Origin: Geothrix sp. SG200
GTDB lineage: Bacteria > Acidobacteriota > Holophagae > Holophagales > Holophagaceae
NCBI RefSeq assembly: GCF_022808935.1
Contig: NZ_JAKZFR010000001.1
Coordinates: 1,054,001 to 1,118,000, forward strand
Length of the DNA: 64,000 nt
Reading direction: 5' to 3'
Part shown: in pieces, positions 49,110-56,167 of the stretch
Layout of the letters: each line of letters begins with the position of its first letter
Numbering within the stretch: the first letter of the stretch is position 1
Program-made: the position numbers and the translations under genes
Notes under the pieces: generated by a model
Told to the model about the DNA's origin: nothing
Database searches by the model: none
The model's input: the letters and a program-made list of their open reading frames with translations, nothing else

Positions 49110-49496
49110 ATGTCCACCACGCCCATCCGCCCTTCCGATGGCGAGCTCGCCATCCTCAGGGTCCTGTGGTCGCGGGGAACCTCGACGGTTCGGGACGTGC
49201 ACACCGAGCTTTCGAAGGACCGGGACATGGGCTACACCACCGTGCTGAAGCTCATGCAGATCATGGTGGAGAAGGGCCTGGTGGCCCGGGACGAACGCGC
49301 GCGTTCCCACACCTACCAGGCTCTCCAGGGGGAAGCTGAAACCCAGCGCTGCCTGTTGAAGGAACTTCTGCAGAAGGCCTTCGCGGGCAGCCGCCGGGAA
49401 CTCGTCCTCCAGGCCCTCGAAGCCGAGCCCGCCTCGGCCGAGGAGCTGGAGGACATCCGCAACCTGCTGAACGAAGCCAAGGGAAGGGCCCGGTGA
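49110..49496 (+). CDS. BlaI/MecI-family transcriptional repressor
   Basis: A 128-aa winged-helix protein: SDGELAILRVLWSRGTSTVRDVH, then the recognition helix GYTTVLKLMQIMVEKGLV, as in BlaI/MecI, followed by a dimerisation helix region. It would bind the two palindromes upstream of its own gene. It is released when cleaved in the presence of the sensor partner. Its stop overlaps the M56 gene by 4 nt (GTGA). Ligand unknown; beta-lactam resistance is not implied because no beta-lactamase lies here. Confidence 0.9.
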   Translation: MSTTPIRPSDGELAILRVLWSRGTSTVRDVHTELSKDRDMGYTTVLKLMQIMVEKGLVARDERARSHTYQALQGEAETQRCLLKELLQKAFAGSRRELVLQALEAEPASAEELEDIRNLLNEAKGRAR

Positions 49497-50809
49497 GCGA
49501 CTGGGCCTCCCTCTCTCTGCTTCGGAGCACCGGCTGGGCTCTGCTCCACAGCCTATGGCAGGACGCGCTGCTGGCCCTGCTGGCGGCGCTGGCGCTCCGG
49601 CTGGCGCGGCGCCGTTCCGCTGAACTCCGGTACGCCATCGCGTTCGTCACCCTCGGCCTGCTGGTCCTCGCCTTCGCGGGAACCCTGGTGTGGATCTCGG
49701 CCGGTGGCGACCCTCTGTCCACCGCCGATCCTGTCTTGATCGCCCCCATGGGCGGGGGAGGCGGCCTCGGAGGATGGATGGCCCGGCTGCATGCCGCGCT
49801 CGCTCCCTGGATCCCCTGGCTGTTCCTGGCATGGGTCCTGGGATTCAGCCTCCGGCTCGTGCGGATGGGGCATGCCATGGCTTGGCTCTACGGGCCCTGC
49901 CTTAGCAGCCTCCAGCCGCCGCCCGCCGGATGGCCGAGGCGATTCGAGGCTCTGAGGGTCAGCGCGCGCGTGCGGGTCCCAGTCCGCCTCGGGTTGTCCG
50001 ACCGGGTGGATTCGCTCGTGGTGCTGGGCTGGCTGAAACCCGTGGTGCTGGTCCCCGCCGCGGCCTTCCTGTCCCTCCCTCCAGAGGCGCTGGATGCCTT
50101 GCTGGCCCACGAACTGGCCCACGTCCGCCGCGGGGACTTTCTCGCGAACCTGGCCCAGACCCTCGCGGAGGCTGTGCTGTTCTACCACCCCGCCGTCTGG
50201 TGGCTCTCCCGGCGCATTCGCCAGGAGCGCGAGCACTGTTGCGATGATGCGGCCGTGCGCGCCTGCGGCGACCCGATCCTCTACGCCTCCGCCCTCGTCG
50301 GGCTGGAGGAACTCCGATCCCGATCGAACCTGATTCCCGATCTGGCCCCCGCGGCCAGTGGAGGTCATCTCATGCTCCGAATCCAGCGTCTGCTGCGCCC
50401 CCATCCCACCCATCCCGCGGCCTCACCCATGGCCGCGCTCATCCCCGCCCTCCTGCTGGCGGCGGTCCTCGGCCTCACCACGCTGTCCGCCACCAACGCC
50501 CCGAAGTCCGCACCCGCGGCCTCGGATCCCGTGGAGATGGACTGGAAGAAGATCAAGGTCAAGCATCAGCCCGATGCGCCTGCCTATCCGCCCGAAGCCA
50601 AGGCCCAGCGCATTCAGGGCACCGTCGTGGTGGTCGTCACCATCGATGCCCAGGGGAAGGTGCAGGACGCCAAAGCCATCTCGGGGCCGCCCGAGCTGCA
50701 TGCCTGCGCCGTGGGCTATGCCAGGACCTGGGAATTCGAACCCGCCAGGGTGAAGGGCAAGCCCGTCGCTGCCCGCTTCAAGCTCACCATGCCATTCCGT
50801 CTGAGGTGA
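49493..50809 (+). CDS. M56 peptidase (BlaR1-like) fused to a TonB C-terminal domain
   Basis: A 438-aa membrane protein. About three to four hydrophobic segments surround the M56 zinc peptidase motif HELAHVRRGD (HExxH) near residue 203, with the third ligand in EREHCCDD. Another TM (about 315-335) leads to a TonB-like C-terminal domain (about 355-438: PPEAKAQRIQGTVVVVVTID, GYARTWEFEPA). In BlaR1 that place holds a penicillin-binding sensor. GTG start; overlaps blaI. Probably cleaves BlaI directly or indirectly on sensing an envelope signal. Confidence 0.87.
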   Translation: MSDWASLSLLRSTGWALLHSLWQDALLALLAALALRLARRRSAELRYAIAFVTLGLLVLAFAGTLVWISAGGDPLSTADPVLIAPMGGGGGLGGWMARLHAALAPWIPWLFLAWVLGFSLRLVRMGHAMAWLYGPCLSSLQPPPAGWPRRFEALRVSARVRVPVRLGLSDRVDSLVVLGWLKPVVLVPAAAFLSLPPEALDALLAHELAHVRRGDFLANLAQTLAEAVLFYHPAVWWLSRRIRQEREHCCDDAAVRACGDPILYASALVGLEELRSRSNLIPDLAPAASGGHLMLRIQRLLRPHPTHPAASPMAALIPALLLAAVLGLTTLSATNAPKSAPAASDPVEMDWKKIKVKHQPDAPAYPPEAKAQRIQGTVVVVVTIDAQGKVQDAKAISGPPELHACAVGYARTWEFEPARVKGKPVAARFKLTMPFRLR

Positions 50810-52409: not shown

Positions 52410-53165
52410 TCAGGCACCTTCCCATAGGGTTCGCAGCCGCTGGTAGCCGGCGCGGCTGATGGGGAGGGTGGTGCCGTCGCGGAGGATCGCGTCCCGGTGC
52501 TCCTTGCTGTCCTGCTCGATCCGCACGAGGCGGTCGAGGTTCAGGATGTAGCTGCGGTGGATGCGGATGAACCGGTTCGGATCGAGCTGGGATTCCAGGC
52601 TGGCCAGGGTCTGCTGCTTGAGCAGGCTCCGGCCCTCGGTGCGGAGGAGCACGTAGTCGTCCTGGGCCTGGATCCAGTCCAGGCGGTCCAGGTGGACCAC
52701 CGTCACCTTCGGGCCGTCCTTCACCACGATGCGCTCCAAAGGCTTTCCCTGGCGTGCCGCCGAGGCGAGATCCGTCGCGGACGGGACCGGAGCCGCAGGC
52801 TGGGTGGCCTGGAGAACCCGGGCTTTGGCCAGGGCCGCGTCGAAGCGCTCCTTTGAGAAGGGCTTCAGCAGGTAGTCCACCGCATGGGATTCGAAGGCGC
52901 GCATGGCGTGCTGATCGTAGGCGGTGACGAAGACCACGGCGGGGCGCTTCCCTTCCGCCTCCAGGAGCTCCAGCACTTCGAAGCCGTCCAGCTTGGGCAT
53001 CTGGATGTCCAGGAAGACGAGGTCTGGGTGGTGCTCGGCGGCGGCCTTCAGGGCCTCGAAGCCGTTGGCGCATTCACCCACCACCTCCACATCGGGGTGG
53101 GCGGCCAGGTGCTCGCGCACGACGGAACGCGCGAGATCCTCGTCGTCGATGATCAGGGCTTTCAT
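52410..53165 (-). CDS. LytTR-family response regulator
   Basis: A 251-aa protein: receiver with acidic IIDDED, phospho-acceptor Asp53 in FLDIQMPKLDG and Lys in LLKPFSK, then a LytTR DNA-binding domain (about 145-250) with QAQDDYVLLRTEGRS and the NPNRFIRIHRSYILNLD pattern. LytTR proteins bind direct repeats about one to two helical turns apart. The gene overlaps the kinase gene by ATGA and is last in the operon. Probably activates its own operon. Confidence 0.92.
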   Translation of the reverse strand: MKALIIDDEDLARSVVREHLAAHPDVEVVGECANGFEALKAAAEHHPDLVFLDIQMPKLDGFEVLELLEAEGKRPAVVFVTAYDQHAMRAFESHAVDYLLKPFSKERFDAALAKARVLQATQPAAPVPSATDLASAARQGKPLERIVVKDGPKVTVVHLDRLDWIQAQDDYVLLRTEGRSLLKQQTLASLESQLDPNRFIRIHRSYILNLDRLVRIEQDSKEHRDAILRDGTTLPISRAGYQRLRTLWEGA

Positions 53166-54226
53166 GGCTCCATCTCCAAAGGGAAGACCAGCGTGACGCG
53201 GTGGAGGCCGTCCTGGGCCGTGGCTTCGAACCGGGCCCGGTTCCCGAAGCGGCCCAGCAGGCGTTGGCGGACCTGGCGCAGCCCGAGCCCCAGACCCTGG
53301 GGGACCGGAGCGTCGGCATCCAGCGGGTTATCCACCTTCAGCAGAACGTGTCCTTCCACCACCTCCGCAGCCACGGCCAGGGTGCCGCCCTCCGGCAGGG
53401 CCGCAATGCCGTGCTTGATGGCGTTCTCCACCAGCGGCTGCAGCAGCAGGGTGGGCAGGAGGGCCGGTTCCGCGGCGGGATCGATGCGCCAGTCGAGCTT
53501 CAGGCGGTTGCCGAAGCGGATCTGCTCAATGGCCAGGTAGGCCCGAGCCAGCTCGAGCTCCTCCTGCAGGACGACCTGGCGGCGCTCGCCCAGGCCCAGG
53601 CTGCGGCGGAGGAAATCCGAAAGCAGCACGCACATCTCCCGCGCCCGGGCGGGATCCACGGCGGTCAACGCCGACAGTGAATTCAGGCTGTTGAACAGGA
53701 AGTGGGGATTGAGCTGGGCCCGCAAGGCCTTCAGCTCCGACTCCTGGGCCAGGATCTGGAGCTCGGCACCCTTCCGTTCGGCTTCCAGGGCGCGCTCCTG
53801 GGCCAGCATGAGGTAGCTGAGGGCCACGGAGGCCAGGTAGAGCAGGATGCCCACGCCCGTGAGCACGGGCAGGGCGATGTCCACGTGGCGGGGCAGGGTG
53901 CCAAGGCCGGGGATCCAGGCCAGGATCCGGGCCAGCAGCCAGGCCAGCCCCGCCCAGATGCTGCCCATGAGCACGGCTGCCAGGCCCCAGGCCGCTCCGT
54001 GGGAGCCCAGCGTTTCCACCCGCTGGCCAAGCGGGAGCGCCCGGCAGAGAAACCAGGCGGACAGGAAGAGGAAGGCCGCGATCAGGCAGAGGGGCAGGGC
54101 CAAGGCCGCTGCCTCCGCCCAGCTCCAGTTCTGGGTGCGGGCGATTCCCATCAGCAGCAGGGCGATGGGGGCCCACCCCAGGAGGTAGGCCCCCAGACGC
54201 GCCCGGTTGGCCAGGAGGGGATGCAT
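53162..54226 (-). CDS. LytS-type sensor histidine kinase
   Basis: A 354-aa protein with about four N-terminal TMs (residues 8-160) and no large sensor domain, then a His_kinase domain with QLNPHFLFNSLNSL (phospho-acceptor His) and an ATPase domain with QPLVENAIKHG and GLGLGLRQVRQRL. This is the usual partner of LytTR regulators. The ATG at 54226 overlaps the previous stop (TGATG). With so little sensing domain, it may be controlled by the membrane proteins encoded just upstream. Confidence 0.9.
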   Translation of the reverse strand: MHPLLANRARLGAYLLGWAPIALLLMGIARTQNWSWAEAAALALPLCLIAAFLFLSAWFLCRALPLGQRVETLGSHGAAWGLAAVLMGSIWAGLAWLLARILAWIPGLGTLPRHVDIALPVLTGVGILLYLASVALSYLMLAQERALEAERKGAELQILAQESELKALRAQLNPHFLFNSLNSLSALTAVDPARAREMCVLLSDFLRRSLGLGERRQVVLQEELELARAYLAIEQIRFGNRLKLDWRIDPAAEPALLPTLLLQPLVENAIKHGIAALPEGGTLAVAAEVVEGHVLLKVDNPLDADAPVPQGLGLGLRQVRQRLLGRFGNRARFEATAQDGLHRVTLVFPLEMEP

Positions 54227-54936: not shown

Positions 54937-55358
54937 GGGTTCACCTGCGTGGATCCGGAATCAGGATCACAGGAATCGGGCTCGGATGGCGACGGCCGGC
55001 GGCGCCTGCAGCGGGGCGGCGGGCTCCATTGGGGAAACAGGGCGCGGAGCGTGACGATGAGGCCGCCCCACACCAGGAAGACCGGCCACCAGCGCTCCAG
55101 GAGCCCCCAGGGGCCGAACTGGGAGATGAAGCCCGCGACGGCGAAGCCCAGCCAGATGTGACCGCGGAGGCTGAGGAGACCATCCTGGACCAGACGGGCG
55201 AGGCCCACGGCGGCCACCGCCAGCGGCCACCAGGCCAGCAGGTGCCAGGCGTCGAGCCAGTGGAGGCTGTCCACCAGAAGAATCAGGCCCACCGTAATGA
55301 CCACCAGGCCGAGGACCAACTTGACGGAAAAGACAGGGGGGCGTTCCTGGACGTTCAT
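54933..55358 (-). CDS. DUF5668-like small membrane protein
   Basis: A 141-aa protein with about four hydrophobic stretches (for example LVLGLVVITVGLILLVDSLHW, WWPLAVAAVGLARLV, WWPVFLVWGGLIVTL). The repeated pattern of Trp-containing helices resembles the N-terminal part of the LiaF-like protein next to it, suggesting an origin by partial duplication. The C-terminus is Arg/Pro/Ser-rich. ATG at 55358 has AAAGGAG upstream. It ATGA-overlaps both neighbours. Confidence 0.75.
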   Translation of the reverse strand: MNVQERPPVFSVKLVLGLVVITVGLILLVDSLHWLDAWHLLAWWPLAVAAVGLARLVQDGLLSLRGHIWLGFAVAGFISQFGPWGLLERWWPVFLVWGGLIVTLRALFPQWSPPPRCRRRRPSPSEPDSCDPDSGSTQVNP

Positions 55359-55468
55359 GGGTGGCGCTCCTTTCGGCCGGAACCCGCGGAGAAGCTGAAG
55401 GCGAGCGTGGGCAGCCACAGGGCCAGCCACCACCAGGGGCTGTCGATGAACCATCCCAGCTGGATCAT
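55355..55468 (-). CDS. Micro-ORF: 37-aa single-pass membrane protein at the operon head
   Basis: An ATG at 55468 preceded by AAGGAGG at good spacing opens 37 codons ending in TGA that overlaps the next start (ATGA). The peptide begins MIQLGWFIDSPWWWLALW, with four tryptophans in a hydrophobic stretch of about 20 residues, then a basic tail (GRKERHP). The strong ribosome-binding site and the coupled stop argue that it is a real gene. It may be a regulator or subunit of the membrane proteins and kinase downstream. Confidence 0.75.
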   Translation of the reverse strand: MIQLGWFIDSPWWWLALWLPTLAFSFSAGSGRKERHP

Positions 55469-55522
55469 GGGCGCCTCCTTCCGCATGACCAAGCTACGGG
55501 CGTCTTGACAGGAAACCGGGCC

Positions 55523-55554
55523 GGGATCGGCGAACGGCGGGTGGGGATCGGCGA
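55523..55554. promoter_or_regulatory. 21-bp-period direct repeat, candidate LytTR-regulator binding site
   Basis: GGGATCGGCGA occurs twice (55523-55533 and 55544-55554), 11 identical bases at a 21-bp step. Two such half-sites two helical turns apart are the usual target of LytTR dimers. It lies 55-86 bp before the micro-ORF start, at the head of the LytTR operon. Confidence 0.65.
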
Positions 55555-55558
55555 GTGG

Positions 55559-56167
55559 TCAAGCCCAGGCGATCGTCCCGCCCCGGCTGCGCTCCCGCCA
55601 GGCATGGTCGAGGGCGGGACAGAGTTCCGGCGGGCACTCGAAGCGGATGGTGGCTGCGTCTCCCTCGAAGGTCTGGCCGGTCACGGCAGCGGCGGGAAAG
55701 CCTCCCAGCAGGGCGAAGGGCAGATGGGCCTGGGCCGCGGGGACACGGATCTCCCCTTGGCGGAGGATCCGGACCTCCTCCCAGAGGCCCTGGGCTGCGG
55801 CTTCGGCCAGGGCGCCCTGGACACCCTCCGTATAGGCCCTCACCAGACCGCCAGTGCCGAGCTTGGTTCCCCCGTACCATCGGATGCAGACCGCGATGAG
55901 GTCGGTGGCCTCGGCGCCCTCCAGCACCACCAGCATGGGTTTCCCGGCCGTGCCGGAGGGCTCGCCGTCATCATCGGCGCCGAAAGCCGCGACCGGGACG
56001 CCTTCCCGCCAGGCGCTGCAGTGGTGCGTGGCGTCGAAGTCCCGCTTGCGAAGCGAGGCCAGCACGACGGCCCGGTCTTCAGCATCCAATGCGGGGTGCA
56101 GCTCGGTGAGGAAGACCGAAGCCTTCTCCCTGAAGCGGTGGGTGGCGACCCCGGTCAGACGACGCAT
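55559..56167 (-). CDS. YigZ/IMPACT family protein (UPF0029)
   Basis: A 202-aa protein with the two family signatures, DDDGEPSGTAGKP and RWYGGTKLGTGGL (then VRAY), in the first domain, and a smaller C-terminal ferredoxin-like domain. Proteins of this family bind nucleic acid or affect translation; the bacterial role is not settled. It comes right before the LytTR operon, on the same strand, with a 90-bp gap. Confidence 0.9.
   Translation of the reverse strand: MRRLTGVATHRFREKASVFLTELHPALDAEDRAVVLASLRKRDFDATHHCSAWREGVPVAAFGADDDGEPSGTAGKPMLVVLEGAEATDLIAVCIRWYGGTKLGTGGLVRAYTEGVQGALAEAAAQGLWEEVRILRQGEIRVPAAQAHLPFALLGGFPAAAVTGQTFEGDAATIRFECPPELCPALDHAWRERSRGGTIAWA

Follow-up and report, generated by a model that had tools for sequence, protein, structure and literature searches.

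A putative Trp-rich membrane micro-ORF heading a LiaF-like/LytS/LytTR operon in Geothrix, a possible accessory partner of its sensing unit

A 37-codon open reading frame at the head of a LiaF-like/LytS/LytTR operon in Geothrix is, judged by its conservation, almost certainly a real protein-coding gene. The reading we find best, and hold with middling confidence, is that its product serves the LiaF-like/LytS sensing unit as an accessory membrane peptide, auto-induced as part of an autoregulated Lia/PSP-like operon.

The frame lies in the window, by which we mean the whole stretch of 64,000 nt from Geothrix sp. SG200 that was analysed, and the coordinates of the features are collected in Table 1. 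The original prediction had placed the frame correctly and left out the strand, which is the minus strand. Translation from the ATG at 55468-55466 to the TGA stop at 55357-55355 gives MIQLGWFIDSPWWWLALWLPTLAFSFSAGSGRKERHP, with five Trp residues (W6, W12-14 and W18) and not the four counted earlier. The AAGGAGG site predicted at good spacing is indeed found at 55480-55474, 5 nt from the ATG, and a purine-rich site occupies the Shine-Dalgarno position in the 43 anchored Geothrix loci. The stop overlaps the next start as claimed, ATGA being shared with gene A, while the likeness postulated for every other junction stood for ATGA at three of the four (micro-ORF/A, A/B and kinase/regulator) and failed at B/kinase, which is a 1-nt overlap (TGATG). 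Present-day gene callers can handle ORFs as short as 111 nt, and the 37-aa peptide matched no family in Pfam or NCBIfam at E ≤ 1. An upstream in-frame ATG, giving a 43-aa form from 55486, was rejected as start as it precedes the Shine-Dalgarno site and is near the likely transcription start. It was picked as start in 16/43 Geothrix loci, and the extension was trimmed before the dN/dS, column-shuffle, HMM-shuffle, hydropathy and spacing/Trp-count analyses.

Table 1. Features of the micro-ORF operon and operator sites elsewhere in the same genome
Feature	Position	Strand	Basis
Putative LytTR-type operator, direct repeats CTCGCCGAT-N12-TTCGCCGAT, 21 bp period	55526..55555	-	43-locus profile
-10-like element CCGTAGCTTGG (TAGCTT 55496-55491)	55489..55499	-	anchored profile, 43 loci
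Shine-Dalgarno site AAGGAGG of the micro-ORF	55474..55480	-	sequence; 5 nt before ATG
Micro-ORF, 37 aa, predicted Trp-rich single-pass membrane peptide	55355..55468, stop included	-	translation
Gene A, DUF5668 / LiaI-LiaF-like transmembrane protein, 141 aa	54933..55358	-	PF18917 27.3 bits (cut-off 27)
Gene B, LiaF-like (LiaF-TM + LiaF-like C-terminal domain), 236 aa	54226..54936	-	Pfam
LytS-class histidine kinase, 354 aa from ATG at 54226	53162..54226	-	PF06580 91.6 bits
LytTR response regulator, 251 aa	52410..53165	-	PF00072 93.3 bits, PF04397 78.7 bits (cut-off 22.6)
Operator site, Sensor-DUF4342 (L156)	C1:299183-299212		
Operator site, ABC-2 exporter (L157)	C1:831050-831079		
Operator site, SPFH-SHOCT (L158)	C8:23033-23062		

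Gene A is present in 44/47 Geothrix genomes, the window's genome included; no match was found in G024 and G039, and G026 gave just a stray match (E 0.009, containing a stop). In G039 gene B is present from residue 31 onward only. In 43 of the 44 genomes with gene A the micro-ORF frame is open over 35-39 aa, overlaps gene A by ATGA and begins downstream of the promoter-like element, and the copies differ in length by whole codons only. Conservation of the frame upstream of LiaF-like genes, on which the original prediction had been staked, was thus borne out within the genus. In one MAG (G027; L151 / L053) an insert of about 270 bp splits the micro-ORF; it carries short terminal inverted repeats of the AGCC-GTCCAAGTG type and resembles a MITE, unless it arose in the assembly. 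An identical micro-ORF peptide occurs in G. terrae SG184 and G. paludis SG195. When whole genomes were searched with the peptide only, unguided by A, 39 Geothrix matches came up (E ≤ 1.6e-4), all adjoining A, and the most diverged Geothrix copies were recovered via gene A only.

The coding character of the frame was assessed by a column-shuffle test on 37 distinct of the 43 sequences and 35 codon columns. The true alignment gave an in-frame mean BLOSUM of 1.28 and 0 stops, against a mean of 0.01 (sd 0.24, maximum 0.77) and a mean of 30.7 stops (minimum 2) in 150 column shuffles. Entropies at codon positions 1, 2 and 3 are 0.78, 0.53 and 0.91, the third position being the most variable and the second the least, and the median dN/dS of 0.42 (766 non-independent pairs, pS 0.05-0.6) is moderate only. 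Columns conserved at ≥90% in the 32-row set are W6, W12, W14, L17, P20, L22, P27, G29 and K33, of which P27 is Ser in the window's own copy. The conserved RKE tail is encoded by the Shine-Dalgarno site of gene A (AAAGGAG), hence constraint on the nucleotides may explain some of its conservation.

To judge by hydropathy and charge, the product is very likely a single-pass membrane peptide. All 56 peptides examined, 43 Geothrix homologues together with the slot-mates of other genera treated below, contain a favourable 19-residue hydropathy window and have more K/R in the last ten residues than in the first ten, in agreement with the hydrophobic single pass and basic tail of the original prediction. 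Topology is read from K/R bias by the positive-inside rule, and since the C-terminal end is the richer in K/R in all 56, an N-out/C-in pass is predicted. At modest confidence (mean pLDDT 74) AF2 models helices at residues 3-8 and 11-29.

Pfam agrees with the proposal that the micro-ORF heads a LiaF-like/LytS/LytTR operon. Gene A has a second score with PF22570 (25.9 bits), below the cut-off of 27. For gene B, PF22570 (LiaF-TM) reaches 44.5 bits (cut-off 27) and PF18917 38.5 bits, and the LiaF-like_C domain PF09922, at 27.1 bits, falls just under its cut-off of 29. The kinase has N-terminal hydrophobic segments by eye, and the best NCBIfam match of the regulator is BtsR (186.7 bits, below the cut-off of 246). 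No PspA/LiaH gene is found within the five-gene operon. Next upstream on the same strand is a UPF0029 gene (55559-56167), and the order UPF0029-micro-A-B-HK-RR is kept at most Geothrix loci, within contig reach; the stretches taken for L065-L067 showed no UPF0029 gene, and in L152 it stands about 3 kb further off. Two Geothrix MAGs carry inserts of about 350-410 bp between B and the kinase gene (L141 5236-5600, L152 4961-5380), with inverted ends (GGTCTGTCTTC type) and about 74% mutual identity, distinct from the G027 insert. Near the operon, at 49493-50809 on the plus strand of the window, lies a gene for a BlaR1-type M56 peptidase fused to a TonB C-terminal domain.

To profile the upstream region, the 43 Geothrix loci were anchored on CCGTAGCTTG. 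The profile runs from two TCGCCGRTC repeats 21 bp apart through a variable stretch to the -10-like element and the Shine-Dalgarno site. The -10-like element is nearly invariant between variable flanks in these 43 loci, the anchor pattern itself having been used in finding it, and is also visible in unanchored upstream sequences; CCCGTAGCTTG has one occurrence in the genome, and a looser form of the element precedes 12/13 other-genus slot-mates. A sigma-70 scan called no promoter at the micro-ORF upstream region, a miss that is not unexpected and fits an activator-dependent promoter with a weak -35.

The CCG core is present in both repeats at 43/43 Geothrix loci. The whole operator is found at all 43 with at most two mismatches (0, 1 and 2 mismatches in 39, 3 and 1 loci), and the distance from its start to the TA of the -10-like element is exactly 59 nt in every one. 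LytTR sites are typically described as pairs of 9-11 bp repeats separated by 11-13 bp (PMC4847170), and in LRS operons such repeats are reported just upstream of the -35, driving autoactivation (PMC6193735). The AlgR core given in PMC4064291, CCGTTCGTC, is similar to our second repeat when its flank is included (CCGTTCGCC). In other genera the operator stands at 13/13 slot-ORF loci within two mismatches of a slightly shorter pattern, 11 of them exact, and a control stretch downstream has 5-7 mismatches; it is also present at 8/9 loci without the slot ORF, the one lacking it being G050. As the genome carries six LytTR domains, the pairing rests on position and joint conservation across genera, from which we infer that the operon's own LytTR regulator reads the operator before the micro-ORF. 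We consider LytTR autoregulation of the operon, with autoactivation deduced from this arrangement, to be quite probable.

The idea that the operator is unique to the operon had been suggested by 39 matches against 30 for the reversed pattern (≤2 mismatches) and was rejected when another pattern, at ≤1 mismatch, gave 229 matches in the 47 Geothrix genomes against 19 for its reverse. The sites recur before three gene sets, namely an ABC-2 exporter (ABC_tran, ABC2_membrane_3), a PF13796 Sensor protein with DUF4342, and a Band_7_1-SHOCT (SPFH) protein whose SHOCT score of 24.4 bits is under the cut-off of 27. Counts at these targets rest on loci picked by protein orthology and not by operator presence. 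Upstream regions were scanned over 180 nt among the matches listed, which comprise 30 ABC, 30 SPFH and 27 Sensor loci of 45, 45 and 27 genomes matched (47 searched for the Sensor gene, E ≤ 1e-30). The pattern occurs at ≤1 mismatch before 23/29 ABC orthologues (L198, at a contig end, omitted) and 23/27 Sensor orthologues, and at ≤2 mismatches before 24/30 SPFH orthologues; six SPFH loci reach 3 mismatches only and six ABC loci 3-4. No match at ≤3 mismatches was found in 261 in-gene windows, and the reversed pattern upstream of the target orthologues never went below 3 mismatches. Distances from operator to start, projected from the query, are mostly 88-91 nt (ABC), 77-88 nt (Sensor) and 110-111 nt (SPFH).

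As in the operon, a TA(G/A/C)NNT stands 58-60 nt from the operator start in 23/23 ABC loci and 58-59 nt in 26/26 Sensor loci; in 24/24 SPFH loci it stands at 69-70 nt, about one helical turn further, and a TTGACA or TTGCCA often lies in the interval. SPFH and DUF4342 are linked to the PSP/Lia world. According to PMC11237479, SHOCT, LiaF-type and Toastrack-type domains belong there as well. The operator-marked gene sets are likely to form a Lia/PSP-like envelope-stress regulon. Among single sites, the operator in G033 (L167) precedes DUF4342, no Sensor match being found there at E ≤ 1e-30, and the Sensor gene seems to have been lost or internally deleted. Further operators in G017 (L159) and G033 (L165) precede a gene whose product, about 470 aa long, begins hydrophobic; its G017 copy gave no confident Pfam match. 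A one-mismatch match of other make-up in the window's own genome (G000 C5:229619-229648) has counterparts in many Geothrix genomes and may be conserved coding sequence.

Outside Geothrix we sampled 22 loci from nine further genera, labelled g3 to g11. A small single-helix ORF of 37-46 aa fills the slot of the micro-ORF at 13 of them (g3 1/2, g4 1/1, g5 1/1, g6 4/4, g8 1/1, g9 5/5) and is absent from nine (G050 of g3, g7 0/4, g10 0/1, g11 0/3). The next start is overlapped at 7/13; in g3 the stop falls 1 nt short of it, and the g9 ORFs, which do not overlap the LiaF-like gene behind them, are separated from it by about 29 nt (17 or 29 in G068). Homology of all slot-mates was tested by shuffles and is supported for g9 alone, where each of the five peptides scores 18-25 bits with the Geothrix HMM and 0/200 shuffles reach the score. 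With this HMM the slot-mates of g3, g5, g6 and g8 are indistinguishable from shuffles by sequence, and for g4, when left out of the model, 9/200 shuffles reach its score; a stronger g4 match came from an HMM that included g4 itself. Slot-mates outside g9 thus share position and make-up, without detectable sequence likeness. Between g9 copies, synonymous codon differences are nearly as many as the others (105 and 106); between g6 copies of equal length the figures are 9 and 14.

In g9 gene A is missing and the LiaF-like B stands behind the peptide. Kept without A and without the overlap, the g9 peptide is not merely a leader for A. In g7, g10 and g11 the operon and its operator are present without the micro-ORF, which is therefore not essential to the circuit. 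The tree of B places g8, a long branch with the slot ORF, beside g7 (support 98/90), and this grouping suggests that the slot ORF was lost in g7. Gene B was found in 65/93 genomes of the class, all 65 within the family and 0/16 outside it. When 297 genomes of the phylum were searched with the micro-family HMM, 62 matched at E ≤ 0.1, convincing matches being the genus members and G052 only; the remainder (best E 4.8e-4) are chance-like, with the exception of G065 (E 0.099), which precedes a LiaF-like gene.

Several other explanations of the frame were weighed. A chance ORF without function would be in keeping with its shortness, its split by an insert in one MAG (G027) and its absence from g7, but 43/44 loci kept, a coding test passed and length changes in whole codons make this barely credible, and it was rejected on conservation. 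A translational-coupling leader, in which translation of the micro-ORF makes the start of A accessible or supplies it with ribosomes and the peptide is functionless, would account for the ATGA overlap in 43/43 intact Geothrix loci and for the Shine-Dalgarno site of A within the last micro-ORF codons. We consider it unlikely, with conservation at the amino-acid level exceeding all 150 column shuffles and the homologous g9 peptide kept without overlap and without A behind. Three successive Trp codons in 31/43 Geothrix copies bring to mind a Trp-codon attenuator, where the WWW run would stall ribosomes at low tryptophan. There is no room for one, however, because the micro-ORF stop and the start of A overlap and leave no intergenic space; the Trp count varies from 2 to 6 with no WWW in 12/43 Geothrix copies, the four g6 slot-mates (G055 included) have one Trp each, and Pfam finds no Trp-synthesis gene in the operon. 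Attenuation was rejected on the stop-start overlap and the variable Trp number, and is extremely improbable.

A close rival to the favoured reading has the peptide as a stress effector, or as a stabilising subunit of the LiaF-like complex, and not as a regulator of the kinase; we take this for a serious possibility that falls short of probable. KdpF and CydX are stabilising small subunits of their complexes, and the micro-ORF comes first in an apparently induced operon. Its Trp-belt single pass, the membrane proteins among the operator's other targets, and a fast-evolving sequence with conserved physical make-up would all suit such a part. On the other hand, the peptide is seen directly before a LiaI/LiaF-like gene only (56 loci), which does not separate subunit from regulator, and elsewhere in the phylum sample there are weak matches only (best E 4.8e-4).

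Comparison with known systems places the operon between several of them. The LRS of Streptococcus mutans (HdrRM, BrsRM) are described as autoregulated operons in which a LytTR regulator is encoded with a membrane protein, and 9-bp direct repeats, paired and in most cases separated by 12 bp, lie just upstream of the -35; HdrM carries DUF2154 (PMC6193735), counted in PMC11237479 as the C-terminal domain of LiaF. The Geothrix operon is alike in its LytTR regulator (PF04397, 78.7 bits against a cut-off of 22.6) and in paired direct repeats with a 12-bp gap and a 21-bp period, whose start is 59 nt away from the TA of the -10-like element (43/43). Whereas LRS are described as consisting of a regulator and a membrane inhibitor, the Geothrix operon has a LytS-class kinase (PF06580), a receiver on the regulator (PF00072), two LiaF-type proteins and the micro-ORF. 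With LiaFSR and VraTSR it shares a LiaF-like membrane protein beside a two-component pair, LiaI-LiaF-TM domains and membrane-type targets (as these are presented in PMC11237479). As regards LiaF itself, gene B scores above the cut-off for LiaF-TM (44.5 against 27 bits) and below that for LiaF-like_C (27.1 against 29). The LiaFSR regulator is LiaR-type (receiver and HTH), whereas here the output domain is LytTR and the kinase LytS-class, and the five genes include no PspA/LiaH gene and an extra micro-ORF. LytTR beside Toastrack-LiaI-LiaF-TM genes is recorded in Firmicutes (PMC11237479).

The kinase and regulator classes are those of BtsSR and YpdAB of E. coli, the best NCBIfam match of the regulator being BtsR, below cut-off. 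Those two systems serve nutrient sensing and, unlike the Geothrix operon, work without LiaF-like proteins. The YpdB operator is given as direct repeats (PMC4847170), as here. For the peptide the nearest parallel is MgrB (47 aa), which is reported to act on the kinase PhoQ via its TM, with W20 as key residue (PMC8404706). Both are short single-pass peptides, by prediction in our case, with Trp in the TM region (PMC8404706). MgrB sits in the regulon of its own circuit (PMC8404706), and the micro-ORF has an operator and a promoter-like element directly upstream, by which it would be regulated. The parallel would be one of function, action on the kinase being presumed here. MgrB has the topology N-in/C-out, opposite to the N-out/C-in predicted for the micro-ORF peptide.

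With the accessory-peptide reading, the circuit might work as follows. Envelope stress would relieve the restraint imposed by the LiaF-like proteins on the LytS-class kinase, and the phosphorylated LytTR regulator would bind the two direct repeats 21 bp apart and recruit polymerase to a promoter whose -10-like element is conserved and whose -35 is not. The operon itself and at least three others (ABC-2 exporter, Sensor-DUF4342, SPFH-SHOCT) would then be induced. The micro-ORF would be translated first, coupled to A through ATGA, and the peptide would insert beside A and B as a short helix of N-out/C-in orientation whose Trp residues form an interfacial belt. There the helix may bind the TM bundle of the LiaF-like proteins, the kinase or both, and so adjust signalling; that a Trp-rich helix bound into the TM bundle is a modulator is plausible. 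The adjustment would most likely be an induced feedback, a role favoured because the micro-ORF holds an induced place in the operon. Whether the peptide acts on the sensing unit at all we judge to be evenly balanced, both its partner and the sign of its action being drawn by analogy with MgrB. Further, we speculate that a fast-evolving, family-wide peptide serves as auto-induced third partner of the LiaF-like/LytS sensor, with MgrB-like feedback, in a LytTR-driven Lia/PSP analogue, and we regard this fuller proposal as possible but doubtful.

In the literature searched, a scope outside which most subscription papers and bioRxiv preprints fell, we found no description of the peptide or the regulon in Geothrix/Holophagaceae, and none of a LytTR-driven Lia/PSP analogue in Acidobacteriota. 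Here the part of a small membrane protein within an envelope-stress circuit could be tested beyond the model bacteria known for such peptides, and with a defined operator and target genes the effect of the peptide could be followed by a simple reporter. Because the slot persists while the sequence drifts past recognition, similar partners in other LiaF-like systems may escape detection by homology. For Geothrix itself, the regulon gives a handle on how these bacteria may guard their envelope.
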